Below, piece by piece: positions 2 through 5,704 of a stretch of DNA of 5,704 bases. The notes under the pieces were generated by a model. It saw only the letters and a program-made list of their open reading frames with translations. It did not search any database and was not told the origin of the DNA. Where the stretch lies: the NCBI GenBank assembly GCA_021820645.1, contig JAKADJ010000173.1, positions 1 through 5,704 on the forward strand. Reading direction: 5' to 3'. A program made the translations under genes and the position numbers. The stretch's first letter is position 1, and every line of letters starts with the position of its first letter. Source of the DNA: Bacillota bacterium. GTDB lineage: Bacteria > Bacillota_E > Sulfobacillia > Sulfobacillales > Sulfobacillaceae.

Positions 2-1198
2 GGCCCTTCTTGCACCCAGCTATTAGCCTGGTTTGGTGCGGATGTGCTGAAAATTGAGCGGCCGGGCGTGGGTGATGTCACGCGCAATCAGTTGCGGGAC
101 ATTCCCGATGCCGACGCGTTATATTTTACAACACTGAATAGCAACAAAAAATCGCTGGAGTTGGACACCAAGACTCCTCAGGGTAAAGAAATCCTGGAAA
201 AGCTGATTCGGGAAGCGGACGTAATGGTCGAAAACTTTGCGCCGGGGGCATTGGACCGGATGGGGTTTAGTTGGGAACGGATTCAGGAACTGAATCCCCG
301 GATCATCTTCGGATCGGTTAAGGGATTCGGCGAAAACTCCAGATATTCGGACCTCAAGGTGTACGAGAACGTCGCGCAATGTGCCGGCGGCGCCGCGTCG
401 ACCACGGGGTTTTGGGATGGCCCGCCCACCATTAGTGGCGGTGCCTTAGGTGATAGCAACAGCGGGATGCACTTGGCCATTGGCATTCTGACCGCATTGA
501 TCGGGCGGGAAAAGACCGGGAAGGGCCAAAAGGTAAGTGTTGCCATGCAAGACGCCGTGCTGAACCTCTGTCGGGTTAAACTCCGCGACCAACAGCGACT
601 CGACCGTTTAGGGTACCTCGAAGAATATCCGCAATACCCGAACGGTACGTTTGGCGAGGCCGTACCTCGGGGTGGCAACGCTGGAGGCGGTGGCCAACCC
701 GGTTGGGTTTTGAAATGTAAAGGTTGGGAAACCGATCCGGACGCCTATATTTACTTTACGTTGCAAGAGCAGAATTGGGCCCGCACCTGTCAAGCCATTG
801 GAAAACCTGAGTGGATTGATGACCCGGCGTATAAGACCACAAAAGCGCGGCAGACGCATATTTTTGACATCTTTGCAGATATTGAGAAGTGGTTGGCCGA
901 TAAGACCAAGTATGAAGCGGTGGACATTTTACGGAAGTTTGATGTCCCTTGTGCCCCGGTGATGAACATGAAGGAAATTGAAGAAGATCCGGATTTGCGG
1001 GCCAGTGGGAGTATTGTCGAAGTCGAGCACAAAACTCGCGGGCGGTATCTGACCGTGGGAAGTCCGATTAAATTCTCGGGATTTAAGCCGGAGATTGTGG
1101 GATCGCCGCTGCTCGGCGAGCACACTGACGAAGTTTTGGCTGGTCTTGGGTATAGTGCTGATCAGATTGCTGCCTTACATGAGGCAAAGGTCGTTTAG
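2..1198 (+). CDS. frc: Formyl-CoA:oxalate CoA-transferase, 5' end cut by window edge
   Basis: Class III CoA-transferase that moves CoA from formyl-CoA to oxalate, giving oxalyl-CoA and formate; a cytoplasmic enzyme of oxalate catabolism. The frame is open from base 2, and codons 2-43 read [14 protein letters not shown], which matches the family N-terminus (GPACTQ... in Oxalobacter formigenes Frc as I remember it). The GTG at 44 is therefore an internal valine codon and not the start; about 18 residues lie outside the window. Visible landmarks: [25 protein letters not shown], the catalytic Asp in [10 protein letters not shown] (codon 551-553), the mobile glycine loop GGGGQ (683-697) in [14 protein letters not shown], and the C-terminal [11 protein letters not shown]. 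Compared with the Oxalobacter enzyme a stretch of roughly a dozen residues before the glycine loop is missing, probably a surface loop. The specific sequence [12 protein letters not shown] and the adjacent oxc make Frc much more likely than another CaiB/BaiF family member. Confidence 0.95.
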
Positions 1199-1241: not shown

Positions 1242-1335
1242 GAATTTTAGTAGAGGCTTGGTAGGGACCGGGTATGTTGAGCGATGATAAGTGTAAAAAC
1301 TTTACGACGCGTGGTTAGGGTGATTAGCAAAGGTT

Positions 1336-1343
1336 GGGAGGGG
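1336..1343 (+). promoter_or_regulatory. Ribosome binding site of oxc
   Basis: GGGAGGGG lies 5 bases before the ATG at 1349. It overlaps the possible TTG start at 1334, which argues that 1334 is not used and that ATG 1349 is the true start. A further in-frame ATG at 1364 is too far from this site. Confidence 0.75.
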
Positions 1344-1348
1344 TACTG

Positions 1349-3031
1349 ATGGATTCGGTAGCAATGACGGACGGATTCCATATTGTCGTCGATGCGTTCA
1401 AACTGAACGGTATTGATACGATATATGGGGTGGCGGGCATTCCCATCACAGATTTGTTGCGTTTGGCCCACGAAGAGGGGATTCGATACATTGGATTTCG
1501 CCATGAACAAAGTGCGGCCAATGCGGCAGCGATTGCGGGATATTTGACCAAGAAGCCGGGTGTCTGTATGACGGTGTCTGGCCCCGGGTTCCTGAACGGG
1601 ATGGTGGCACTGGCCAACGCGACCACCAACTGTTTTCCGATGATTCTAATTAGCGGGTCCAGTGACCGCGCGATCATCGACCTGGAACAAGGAGATTACG
1701 AAGAATTAGATCAGTTGAATGCAGCGAGGCCCTACGCGAAAGCCTCGTTCCGGGTCAACCGGCCGCAAGATATCGGAATTGGATTGGCACGTGCTATTCA
1801 CGCCGCCGTATCGGGGCGGCCGGGTGGAGTATATCTCGACTTGCCGGCCGATGTGTTGGGATCCACGCTTGACGTCGAGACCGCGAAGAAGTCTCTGGTG
1901 AAGCCCGTCGATCCCGCGCCAAGTCAAATTCCATCCCCGGAATCGGTCAAGCGGGCGGTTGCGTTATTGTCCGAAGCCAAGCGGCCTCTGATCATTCTTG
2001 GAAAAGGCGCGGCGTACGCGCAAGCGGACCAAGAAATCCGCACGTTTGTCGAGTCAACCGGGATCCCGTTTTTACCGATGTCGATGGCCAAGGGACTCCT
2101 TCCTGACAATCATCCACAATCCGCCGCGGCTGCCCGTTCGTATGCGATTGGGCAGGCAGACGTTGTGGTGCTGTTGGGTGCGCGCTTGAATTGGCTACTA
2201 TCTCATGGTAAGGGCCCGTTGTGGTCGGAAACCACCCAGTACGTACAAATTGATATCTCGCCGACCGAGATGGACAGCAATCGCCTGATTGCGGCTCCTG
2301 TTGTTGGCGACATCAAGTCCGCGGTATCGGCTATTTTGGCCGAGATCAAGCCGAATCAGATTCGGCCGAGTGCTGACTGGACTAACGGGATTGCAGAACG
2401 AAAACAAAAGAATGTGCAACGCATGGCGGAACGTCTGAATGCGGATCCCAATCCGATGAATTTTTCGAGCGCCTTGCGCGTGGTGCGCGATGCTCTCGCA
2501 GATCGGCCCGACATCTACGTGGTCAATGAAGGCGCCAATAGCCTCGACTTTGCCCGAAACATTATTGACATGAGTGAGCCGCGTAAGCGGTTGGACAGCG
2601 GCACCTGGGGCATTATGGGCATTGGCATGGGGTATGCCATCGGCGCTGCGGTCGAGAGCGGGAAACCCGTGGTTGCCATCGAAGGAGATAGTGCCTTTGG
2701 GTTTAGTGGAATGGAACTGGAAACCATCTGTCGATATCGCCTTCCGATCGTTATCGTGGTCTTGAACAATGGAGGTATTTATCGAGGAGATCCGGCGGGT
2801 AGTAAGCCCTCTCCGACCGGGTTTGTGCATGACTCACGCTACGATAAGCTGATTGAAGCATTTGGTGGCAAGGGCTATCATGTGCAAACCAGCGCCAGCC
2901 TTGAGAAGGCCCTTAAAGAGGCTATCGAAGCGGGAACTCCGGCATTGATCAACTGTGTCATCGACCCAACCGCCGGGACTGAGAGTGGTCATATCCAGAG
3001 TCTAAACCCGAAGAGTGCGTTGCAGAAATAA
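1349..3031 (+). CDS. oxc: Oxalyl-CoA decarboxylase (thiamine diphosphate dependent)
   Basis: Decarboxylates oxalyl-CoA to formyl-CoA and CO2; formyl-CoA then feeds back to Frc. The 560 residues from ATG 1349 are close to the roughly 568 of Oxalobacter Oxc, and similarity is visible along the whole length. It has the three-domain layout of ThDP enzymes: N-terminal pyrimidine-binding domain with the cofactor-activating Glu53 in FRHEQ, central regulatory domain ([14 protein letters not shown]), and C-terminal pyrophosphate-binding domain with the metal motif from GDS (446-448) to NN (473-474). Residues matching the known Oxc active site are present: Tyr117-Glu118 in QGDYEE, Tyr478 in NNGGIY, and Ser546 in ESGHIQSLN. 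No signal peptide is apparent, so it should be cytoplasmic. It lies 150 bases after frc with a hairpin between them, so it may have its own promoter, although I found no convincing -35/-10 pair. Acetolactate synthase is excluded by the Oxc-specific motifs. Confidence 0.96.
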
Positions 3032-3213: not shown

Positions 3214-3654
3214 ATGAGCTTTGATGTCGAGCGATTTGCCCGGGTGTTGTTACACACCATGCCGGATGCGGTGATCTATGCAGATGCCAAAGGTATCATT
3301 CAATTTTGGAACGCTGGTGCAGAGCGTATTTTTGGATTCGGACCTTCTGAGGCGTTGGGGCAGTCGCTCGATATAATTATTCCGGAAAATCTTCAAAAAC
3401 GTCACTGGGAAGGCTACGATAAGACTATGAGCACTGGTGAGAGTCGTTATGAGGCAGGGGCCTTGCTTGCAGTGCCTGCTATTCGTAAGGATGGGACCAG
3501 GATCTCGGTGGAATTCACCATTCTACCGTTTCGCGAAGAAAGTGGAGAAATGGCGGGAATTGCGGCGGTGATGCGGGATGTTACGAAGCAATTCGAAGAA
3601 ATGCGGTCGCTTCGCAAAAAAGTGGCCCAGAGTCTTGCAGCGGAAACCCGGTAA
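3214..3654 (+). CDS. Small stand-alone PAS-domain protein
   Basis: 146 residues, nearly all one PAS fold (about 8-125) followed by a short charged helix (about 123-143) that could mediate pairing with itself or a partner. Family landmarks seen: MPDAVIYAD, GIIQFWNAGAERIFG, EALGQSLDIIIPE, RKDGTRISVEFTI, and the closing GIAAVMRDVT. There is no kinase, HTH, GGDEF or other output domain and no membrane segment, so it is a cytoplasmic sensor or adaptor whose partner is not visible. His64 in KRHWEGY lies in the region where FixL-type haem PAS domains carry their haem ligand, but alignment by eye is offset by one residue, so haem binding is only a possibility. The start ATG 3214 is supported by AAGGAG (3199-3204) 9 bases upstream. 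Only 32 bases separate it from the formate dehydrogenase gene, so the two are probably co-transcribed. The PAS fold is certain; ligand and role are unknown. Confidence 0.88.
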   Translation: MSFDVERFARVLLHTMPDAVIYADAKGIIQFWNAGAERIFGFGPSEALGQSLDIIIPENLQKRHWEGYDKTMSTGESRYEAGALLAVPAIRKDGTRISVEFTILPFREESGEMAGIAAVMRDVTKQFEEMRSLRKKVAQSLAAETR

Positions 3655-3673: not shown

Positions 3674-3680
3674 GGGGGAG
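3674..3680 (+). promoter_or_regulatory. Ribosome binding site of the formate dehydrogenase gene
   Basis: GGGGGAG lies 6 bases before ATG 3687. An in-frame TGA at 3660-3662, with no SECIS-like hairpin after it, closes the frame upstream. Together these fix the start and show that the short N-terminus of the protein is encoded as such. Confidence 0.75.
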
Positions 3681-3686
3681 TTAGAA

Positions 3687-5588
3687 ATGGCTGTTGCGTA
3701 TACGAAGAGCGCGCGAACGCGCTTAACCACCCCGCTCATACGAGAAGCGGGAGAACTACGAGTCGCGACGTGGGAGGAGGCGTTATCCCGGGCGGCGGAG
3801 TTGTTCGGCGCCGTCAAGTCCCAGTATGGCCCGAACGGGCTTGGCGTATTTAGCTGTTCGAAATCCACGAATGAGCTCAATTATTTGGCATCAAAATTCT
3901 CACGGGTCGTTTTTGGCACGCATAATATCGACTCCTGTAACCGGACCTGACACGCCCCTTCAGTCGTGGGTCTCACGACTGTGTTTGGGAGTGGCGCGGG
4001 AACGAGTTCTTATGATGATTTTCATCACACGGCATTCATTTTGTTGGTAGGATCTAACGCGGCGGAAGCGCACCCGATTATTTTTCACCACATTATGAAA
4101 GGTGTTCACAATGGCGCTGAATTAGTGGTTGTGGATCCGCGTAAAACTCTAACCACCAAACGTGCTCATGAACATCTTCAGATCGCGGTCGGTTCAGACA
4201 TTGCGCTCTTGAATGCGATGGCCCACGTCATTATCCGAGATGGGCTGTATCGAACAGACTTCATTGATAGGGCAACCGAGGGCTTTGCGGCGTTCGCCGA
4301 GAGCGTCAAGGCTTGGACACCTGAACGTGCGTCCGTCCCCACTGGAATATCGGCCGAACGCATTGAGTCGTTGGCGCGACGTTACGCGAAAGCACCTACG
4401 GCCATGATTGGTTGGACGTTAGGAATTACTGAGCACCACAATGCAGTGGATAACGTCTTGGCCCTCATAAATCTGTCCCTGTTATGCGGTAATGTGGGAA
4501 GACCCGGGGCGGGTCTGAACCCACTACGCGGGCAGAACAACGTGCAGGGTGGGGGCGATATGGGTGCGCTACCGGGCCGCCTGCCTGGGTTTCAAGACGT
4601 GTTGGACCCGGAAGTGCGCAGCAAGTTTGAAGCGGCGTGGGGGGTACCGATTAGCGCCGAACCCGGTTGGGACCAAACGCAGATGTTCGAAGCCATCGAG
4701 AACGACAAGTTGCGTGGCCTCTATATTATTGGGGAGAATCCTATTCAATCGGAAGCTAACGCCGAGCATATGCGGCATTTGTTTAATAAGTTGGACGCCT
4801 TAGTGGTCCAGGATATCTTCTTAACCGCGACCGGGGAGATGGCGGACGTGGTACTGCCCGCCAATGTCTCCTTTGCCGAAAGCGATGGGACCTATACCAA
4901 TAGTGAACGACGCGTTCAGCGCGTACGCGCTGCGCGTAAAGCCCCGGGCCAAGCCCAGGATGATTTGTGGGTGGTTGCCTCATTAGCCCAGGCGATGGGC
5001 CATCCGTGGCCGGTGCAGGGAGCGGAAGCCGTCTTCGACGAAATGCGGAAGTTAACCACAAATTACCGGGGAATGACCTACGAACGATTGGAACAAGCGC
5101 AAGGAATGCAGTGGCCGGTACCCTATGAGGGACACCCGGGCAGTAAGGTCTTGCATGATCGATTGTGGGAAGCGACCGTTGAGAAAAAAGCACCTTTTAT
5201 CCCGGTAGATTGGTCGCCGCCATCAGAAATGCCAACCCCTGAGTTCCCGCTGTTGCTAACGACCGGACGCCGACTGGCATTCTTTAACACTGGAGTACAG
5301 TCCAACGTTTACGACCATCCGCATAAGATCGGGGAATGGATGGAAATGCACCGTGACGACGCCAAACCATTAGGAATTCGCGACGGTGAAACTGTGGCTG
5401 TGGTCTCTCGCCGAGGACGCGTAGAAGTGCCGGTACATTATTCGGATGCGGTGATGCCGGGGACCGTATTTATGACCCTACATTTTCCAGAACACGTCAT
5501 GACGAATAATTTGACGATTGATGCGACGGATCCGAAGTCCGGCACCGCCGAGTTTAAGGCCGCTGCGGTACGAATTGAGCGACTGTGA
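3687..5588 (+). CDS. fdhF: Selenocysteine formate dehydrogenase catalytic subunit, lacking the N-terminal [4Fe-4S] domain; TGA 3948-3950 read as Sec
   Basis: Molybdopterin oxidoreductase that oxidises formate to CO2 at a bis-MGD Mo or W centre, where selenocysteine is the metal ligand. Reading the in-frame TGA as Sec gives 633 residues. Seen in order: LTTPLIR and a WEEAL/NELNY segment (15-70); the active site NIDSCNRT-Sec88-His89-APSVVGL; a GSNAAEAHP and VVVDPRKT cofactor region; NPLRGQNNVQGGGDMGALP with Arg281, 193 residues after Sec as for Sec140-Arg333 in E. coli FdhF; GENPIQSEAN; VQDIFLT; ADVVLP; and a C-terminal dinucleotide-binding domain from about 515 (TTGRRLAFFNTG to TAEFKAAAVRIE). 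E. coli FdhF has 715 residues; here the first ~57 family positions, with all four cluster cysteines, are absent. There is no Tat signal, so it is cytoplasmic. It should oxidise formate released by Frc/Oxc. The electron acceptor is not shown; a NAD-linked complex with downstream subunits is possible. Frameshift or pseudogene is unlikely because the frame and motif are continuous across the TGA. Confidence 0.93.
3948..3950 (+). other. Selenocysteine codon (UGA) in the formate dehydrogenase gene
   Basis: This in-frame TGA sits exactly where formate dehydrogenases carry Sec or Cys: SCNRT before it and HAPSVVGL after it, compared with CCARV-U-HGPSVAGL in E. coli FdhF. The next residue is the conserved active-site His. 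The residues SCNRT before it differ slightly from the common CAR(V/L) pattern: Asn replaces Ala and Thr is at -1. Confidence 0.93.
3951..3996 (+). promoter_or_regulatory. Bacterial SECIS element for UGA recoding
   Basis: CAGTCGTG (3961-3968) and CACGACTG (3974-3981) form a perfect 8-bp upper stem closed by the loop GGTCT (3969-3973). Counting the U of UGA as 1, the loop is G22-G23-U24-C25-U26, the same position and bases as in the E. coli fdhF SECIS, where G23 and U24 contact SelB; position 17 is also U, although here it would be paired in the stem. A possible lower stem pairs CGCC (3953-3956) with GGCG (3993-3996), with CC (3957-3958) pairing to GG (3988-3989). The element also codes for HAPSVVGLTT, so it is under both protein and RNA constraint. 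Confidence 0.92.
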
Positions 5589-5632: not shown

Positions 5633-5704
5633 ATGGACAGCGAGAACGGGACAGTCTCTGACGCCGTGAAGGTCCTCCTGCATGATATACCTCGCGAGCG
5701 GGGT
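5633..5704 (+). CDS. Start of a further gene, cut by the window end; possibly a formate dehydrogenase accessory subunit
   Basis: Twenty-four codons are open to the window end, reading MDSENGTVSDAVKVLLHD and then IPRERG. The gap from the formate dehydrogenase stop is only 44 bases with no hairpin, so it is very likely in the same transcript. The short helix-like start with a VKVLLHDIPRERG stretch would fit the N-terminus of a NuoE/FdsG-like thioredoxin-fold [2Fe-2S] subunit of NAD-linked formate dehydrogenases, but too little is visible to assign it. That the gene exists is fairly sure; the identity is a guess from context. Confidence 0.6.
   Translation, partial: MDSENGTVSDAVKVLLHDIPRERG

Follow-up and report, generated by a model that had tools for sequence, protein, structure and literature searches.

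What enzyme is made from a formate dehydrogenase (FDH) gene whose reading frame contains a TGA codon? The question is raised by the window analysed here, a stretch of 5,704 nucleotides (G000:C35:37210-42913) in a draft genome of 2.88 Mb in 107 contigs (83.6% complete). The nearest loci elsewhere were found in two Bacillota MAGs (85 and 83%) and then in Sulfobacillus (up to 82%). With the TGA at 3948..3950 (plus strand) read as selenocysteine (Sec), positions 3687..5588 of the same strand give 633 residues and a stop codon, with Sec88 within CNRTUHAPSV. The TGA aligns with residue 140 of E. coli FdhF, and from this alignment we know that Sec88 and the conserved His and Arg of the metal-ligand site are all present in the window protein: Sec140, His141 and Arg333 of E. 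coli FDH-H correspond to 88, 89 and 281. The original prediction was that one frame crosses this TGA with FDH sequence on both sides; its coordinates are correct, and the gene passes the cut-off of the TIGR01591 Fdh-alpha profile (677.1 bits, cut-off 666.25). A Shine-Dalgarno-like GGGGGAG (3674..3680, plus strand), read directly from the sequence, precedes the ATG.

The domain composition of the protein is incomplete for an FDH alpha subunit. It has the molybdopterin and dinucleotide-binding domains and no Fe4S4 domain: a domain search of the Sec protein gave no match to PF04879 (Molybdop_Fe4S4), and its N-terminus aligns at residue 61 of E. coli FdhF. E. coli FDH-H (37% identity), unlike the window protein, carries the Fe4S4 domain in the same chain. 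We also considered an Fe4S4 domain concealed upstream in the same frame. This was excluded, as a stop codon 8 codons upstream of the ATG caps any in-frame extension and the preceding gene, for a PAS-domain protein, ends at 3654.

The missing domain was found downstream, in locus L002, where each position equals the window position plus 7210. A NuoE-like [2Fe-2S] gene (148 aa) starts at 5633..5704 on the plus strand and runs past the window end. It is overlapped by 4 nt by a NuoF-like FMN/NADH gene outside the window (L002 13286-14503, starting at GTG 13286), whose product has FMN, SLBB and NADH_4Fe-4S domains only. The third gene downstream of the Sec gene, also outside the window (L002 14528-15367), encodes a protein of 279 aa that has Fer2_4 and Fer4 domains and, at its C-terminal end (residues 223-274), PF04879; of the two proteins, only this one has PF04879. 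The TIGR01591 profile is divided accordingly, with positions 50-672 in the Sec gene and 1-52 in the 279-aa protein, and on chain A of PDB 6tg9 the Sec protein covers 306-931 while the 279-aa protein covers 25-306. Since the Sec protein lacks the Fe4S4 domain and the 279-aa protein ends in that very domain, the alpha subunit is split in two genes. The halves flank the NuoE- and NuoF-like genes, giving the order C-E-F-N (C, catalytic half; N, iron-sulfur half).

As in Fds-type enzymes, NuoE-, NuoF- and NuoG-N-like parts accompany the FDH catalytic domain. FdsABGD of Rhodobacter capsulatus and Cupriavidus necator has the catalytic, NuoE- and NuoF-like parts in common with the window system, and both halves match 6tg9 chain A. 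However, the Fds-type alpha subunit holds its iron-sulfur, Fe4S4 and catalytic parts in one chain, whereas here they belong to two genes parted by NuoE and NuoF; FdsA is described as one chain with a Cys ligand (PMC13397495), in contrast to two genes and Sec in the window system. Putative Sec FDHs have been described in all Sulfobacillus genomes, beside NuoEFG-like genes (Justice et al. 2014, PMC4378227), so the Sec part of our finding is not new. These enzymes belong to the same genus-level group and share the Sec catalytic subunit, the NuoEFG-like cluster and a proposed NADH coupling, but in the account given in the available text of that paper there is no mention that the catalytic gene is without an Fe4S4 domain and that the NuoG-like gene carries it. 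In Pelobacter, an iron-sulfur protein resembling a non-catalytic portion of FDH is reported to be encoded beside NADPH oxidoreductase genes (PMC3543383). A literature search, which did not cover subscription papers or preprints, found no description of the split alpha subunit in the sources it reached. A comparable division is known from formylmethanofuran dehydrogenase, where FwdB and FwdD make an FDH-like catalytic unit from two polypeptides. There the last (dinucleotide-binding) domain is on a separate chain, whereas in the window FDH it is the first (Fe4S4) domain.

To see how general the arrangement is, 80 related loci were compared, of which 25 were left out for having less than 4 kb downstream. 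In 54 of the 55 testable loci, the catalytic half is followed on one strand by NuoE, NuoF and the iron-sulfur half, in that order; the lone exception is L109, whose sequence stops about 500 nt beyond the NuoF match. Among 64 loci matching the iron-sulfur half, 59 have the motif CxxCxxxC...CxK 10-55 residues before the stop, and the other 5 iron-sulfur partners are cut by the locus end. According to the labels in the records (MAG labels as written), the full order occurs in Bacillota, Actinomycetota, Chloroflexota, Planctomycetota, Acidobacteriota, Gemmatimonadota, Myxococcota, Rokubacteria and Spirochaetota, and the Sec gene also in Eremiobacterota. More Actinomycetota genomes have the same order, including L183, a version with Cys. 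An extra 0.6-3.3 kb lies between the catalytic half and NuoE in L065, L072, L088, L100, L108 and L113.

Our explanation of the locus, which we consider very probable as a whole, is a cytoplasmic NAD+-linked (Fds/NuoEFG-like) Sec FDH with an alpha subunit produced as two separate proteins. The bis-MGD metal site, with its Sec88, His89 and Arg281, would be on the 633-aa product. Beside this site there is normally a [4Fe-4S] cluster of the same chain; here that cluster would come from the C-terminal domain of the 279-aa NuoG/HoxU-like protein once the halves are assembled. Electrons from formate would pass from the Mo/W-Sec centre across the subunit interface to that cluster, then to the other Fe-S clusters, and through the FMN of the NuoF-like subunit to NAD+. 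We infer NAD+ as the acceptor because the NuoE/NuoF-like partners have FMN and NADH_4Fe-4S domains.

It could be argued instead that the catalytic half acts by itself or together with other carriers, and that NuoE, NuoF and the 279-aa protein form a separate HoxEFU-like diaphorase merely sharing the operon. The families that the 279-aa protein matches do include HoxU (PRK07569, at 122.7 bits under the cut-off of 333), and the N-terminal [4Fe-4S] cluster is described as missing in some enzymes of the superfamily (PMC10100899). Nevertheless, the 279-aa protein ends in exactly the missing Fe4S4 domain, with its four Cys and the Lys intact, and the gene order is kept in 54 of the 55 testable loci, so we regard a separate diaphorase as unlikely.

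A further candidate is the coupling of formate to ferredoxin and NAD+ by electron bifurcation, as in HylABC-FdhF2 of Clostridium acidurici, or an enzyme running toward CO2 reduction; we judge this quite improbable. The subunit set is similar, as the HylABC-FdhF2 account also has NuoE-, NuoF- and ferredoxin-like proteins and a Sec FDH encoded by separate genes (PMC5736913), and among NCBIfam families the 279-aa half matches NADH-dependent [FeFe] hydrogenase A6 best, though at 170.7 bits far under the cut-off of 765 for that family. But HylB is reported to have, in addition to FMN and NAD binding, a 2Fe-2S domain and two 4Fe-4S domains (PMC5736913), extras that the NuoF-like protein lacks, and the HylABC type is not favoured by this difference in domain set. 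C. acidurici FdhA is likewise described as keeping its own 4Fe-4S domain (PMC5736913), unlike the window catalytic half. Moreover, formate released by the products of the oxalate genes upstream of the Sec gene favours oxidation over CO2 reduction.

The two-protein, NAD+-linked reading has practical consequences. Metal-dependent FDHs are studied for CO2 reduction; if it is true, the metal subunit and the proximal cluster lie on separate chains that could be made, swapped and wired separately, and the split would make the role of the proximal cluster directly testable. The split also explains the database records of ~540-aa fragments and of a '2Fe-2S iron-sulfur cluster-binding protein', and the class is easily misannotated because both halves resemble fragments.

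A SECIS apical hairpin lies at 3961..3981 (plus strand), with an 8-bp stem of perfect pairing, CAGTCGTG / CACGACTG (3961-3968 / 3974-3981), and the loop GGUCU at 3969-3973. The ribosome would insert Sec at UGA 3948 with the aid of SelB on this hairpin, whose stem begins 10 nt past the TGA and whose loop begins 18 nt past it. The original prediction had claimed the spacing of E. coli fdhF for this stem and loop, and in fdhF (MG1655) GGTCT indeed stands at the same +18 offset. When both strands of the window were scanned, this was the single instance of a perfect 8-bp stem with a GGTCT loop. RNA folding and a SECIS search had been proposed as checks. Positions 3948-3995 fold at -21.0 kcal/mol compared with a shuffled mean of -14.7, although with z of -2.25 and 7 of 200 shuffles equally good the folding energy by itself is only modest evidence; the Rfam SECIS_3 match (3945-4003) reaches 25.3 bits, under the gathering score of 63.

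The comparison with homologues is more decisive. TGA stands at this site, inside CNRTUHAP, in all 110 homologous loci examined (L010-L119, chosen by similarity to the window's protein). They represent 96 distinct 60-nt stretches, as there is partial overlap between L010-L039 and L040-L058; the loop is GGTCT in 92 of the 96 and GGGCT in 4. For pairing and covariation, 94 distinct 48-nt rows were compared. Across them, pairing in the apical helix amounts to 88.7%, and the innermost six pairs are intact in every row. Pairs 18-30 and 21-27, at third codon positions, show C-G/G-C swaps in 6 and 25 rows, respectively. Cells changed on both sides number 59, whereas shuffles give 18.7 and slid controls no more than 34; the covariation score is 0.221, as opposed to 0.110 in shuffles and no more than 0.086 in slid controls. 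The stem pairs with double changes number 4, a count that some slid controls also reach. Conservation does not extend to the lower helix in the fold of the window (56.2% paired in these rows). A bacterial SECIS hairpin thus follows the UGA, and it is conservation and covariation, over folding energy and Rfam score, that decide the matter.

A search of 61 genomes listed 38 matches at 54% identity or more, and each of them has one TGA inside. Substitutions in one species pair fall on 35 synonymous and 10 non-synonymous codons before the TGA and on 259 and 81 after it, which indicates purifying selection on both sides in the pair compared. The host was expected to have selA, selB, selC and selD, and all were found in its genome: selA, selB, tRNA-Sec (anticodon tca) and selD lie above their family cut-offs, and fdhD is present too. 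With ARAGORN, the 4.1-kb locus around selB gave no tRNA; the tRNA-Sec was found on another contig. The selD gene (G000:C72:35443-36375) itself contains an in-frame TGA, so selenophosphate synthetase is probably a selenoprotein too. With stricter search filters, the draft genome G017 has the Sec FDH gene and no selA match, and the drafts G018, G020 and G021 have the gene and no tRNA-Sec above the cut-off. An extra in-frame stop beside the Sec TGA was observed in G151 (L171; a second TGA) and G122 (L159; TAG).

Annotation programs usually take such UGA codons for stops, as noted in PMC10100899. Automatic gene calling reported, instead of the whole gene, a truncated ORF at 3966..5588 (plus strand) of 540 aa; the misannotation had been forecast, and P0002 (540 aa) in the protein collection has the same sequence as the ORF that begins at the internal GTG 3966. 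Among 120 listed protein matches, the best 54 have 504-579 aa and the next 66 have 627-668 aa; all six sequences inspected from the latter group have Cys at the Sec site. That translation truly stops at the TGA, or that this codon reflects a sequencing error or a decayed gene, with the fragment as the only product, is hardly credible: the automatic gene calls do treat it as a stop, but the TGA in 110 of 110 loci, the covarying hairpin, the Sec genes and the purifying selection on both sides (one pair) speak against this, and the same evidence, apart from the Sec genes, excludes a frameshift or a pseudogene. On the level of sequence, it is confirmed that the window gene is, as predicted, a real Sec FDH that would be translated through its stop-like codon. 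The original prediction of one selenoprotein with a SelB-type hairpin, Sec machinery in the host and a truncated gene call is supported, though incomplete, because the gene is the catalytic half only of a split alpha subunit. It missed the split, and this C-half/N-half architecture is more interesting than the Sec itself.

For the origin of the split, trees of the catalytic part were computed by a quick method (no bootstrap) from 80 chosen rows, or 77 after dropping three long branches. A single branch (SH-aLRT 98) separates the 55 split rows from all the others, and the 7 Cys rows form one nested clade (SH-aLRT 100). Closest to the split rows are six short Sec FDHs that have an Fe4S4 domain of their own, followed by L135. 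The short enzymes, sister to the split clade, are L185, L186, L187, L192, L197 and L198, which came from the G061-phylum genome search; no NuoE or NuoF match was found within the 16-18 kb fetched around them. The distances of the two halves are correlated (r 0.925, n 54), as relatedness alone would also give.

In the fused relatives L135-L144, the halves adjoin in one frame in 10 of 10. The full order NuoF-[N-C]-NuoE was seen in 4 of them (L137, L138, L139, L141); L135 has N-C-F, L140 and L142 have F-N-C with no NuoE match, L136 and L143 have N-C alone, and L144 has N-C-E on a cut contig. Circular permutation of the fused order F-[N-C]-E gives C-E-F-N. As the two best-supported outside groups do not have F-[N-C]-E, the permutation is a reading of gene order and not a traced event. 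We think it likely that one ancestral event, at the boundary between the Fe4S4 domain and the molybdopterin domain, cut the alpha subunit between the [4Fe-4S] domain and the metal-binding part through a circular permutation of the operon (e.g. tandem duplication and loss), after which the cluster beside the metal site would be delivered in trans. The resulting class would have spread over at least nine bacterial phyla (record labels), mostly with Sec and with one change to Cys in actinomycetes among the rows examined.

The genes upstream suggest where the formate comes from. The first is frc, for formyl-CoA transferase (2..1198, plus strand; a 416-aa ORF whose start lies 53 nt beyond the left end of the window), which matches NF003809 (727.3 bits) and TIGR03253 (701 bits) above both cut-offs. 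It is followed by oxc, for oxalyl-CoA decarboxylase (1334..3031, plus strand; TIGR03254, 968.8 bits, above cut-off), with an uncertain start at TTG 1334 or later. Between oxc and fdh lies the gene of a 146-aa single PAS-domain protein (3214..3654, plus strand; PF00989, 65.8 bits), in which no partner or output domain was evident. Frc would make oxalyl-CoA and free formate, Oxc would make formyl-CoA and CO2, and FDH would finish the breakdown of oxalate by turning formate into CO2 and NADH, in this genome and in the oxalate-linked relatives. From the gene content and the known Frc and Oxc reactions, oxidation of oxalate to CO2 with NADH formation is the likely role of the oxalate-linked FDH, and the gene set suggests that Sulfobacillus-type bacteria have a complete route from oxalate to CO2. 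The words 'oxalate' and 'oxalyl' are absent from the available text of PMC4378227. Phosphoglycolate salvage via oxalyl-CoA was also weighed as a possible role; in Cupriavidus necator, that route is reported to make little if any contribution (PMC7486775).

All of frc, oxc and PAS stand beside fdh in 11 of the 80 loci, every one Sulfobacillus-type. In L041 there is PAS with a partial oxc match of ~100 residues (L041 4862-5155) and no frc match. The PAS protein is present in all 12 oxalate-linked loci, which form one clade among 19 Sulfobacillus-type rows (SH-aLRT 97). Two split FDH operons occur in one Sulfobacillus MAG: L044, where frc, oxc and PAS are all full, and L041, which is perhaps a decaying duplicate. 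Upstream of frc in the present genome, a divergent gene on the minus strand (L002 5677-6666) appears by eye to be LysR-type regulator-like. The genome also has a second, fused FDH-like protein without a TGA (G000:C93:58069-59937, L133), with an open frame of 1007 aa and 33% identity.
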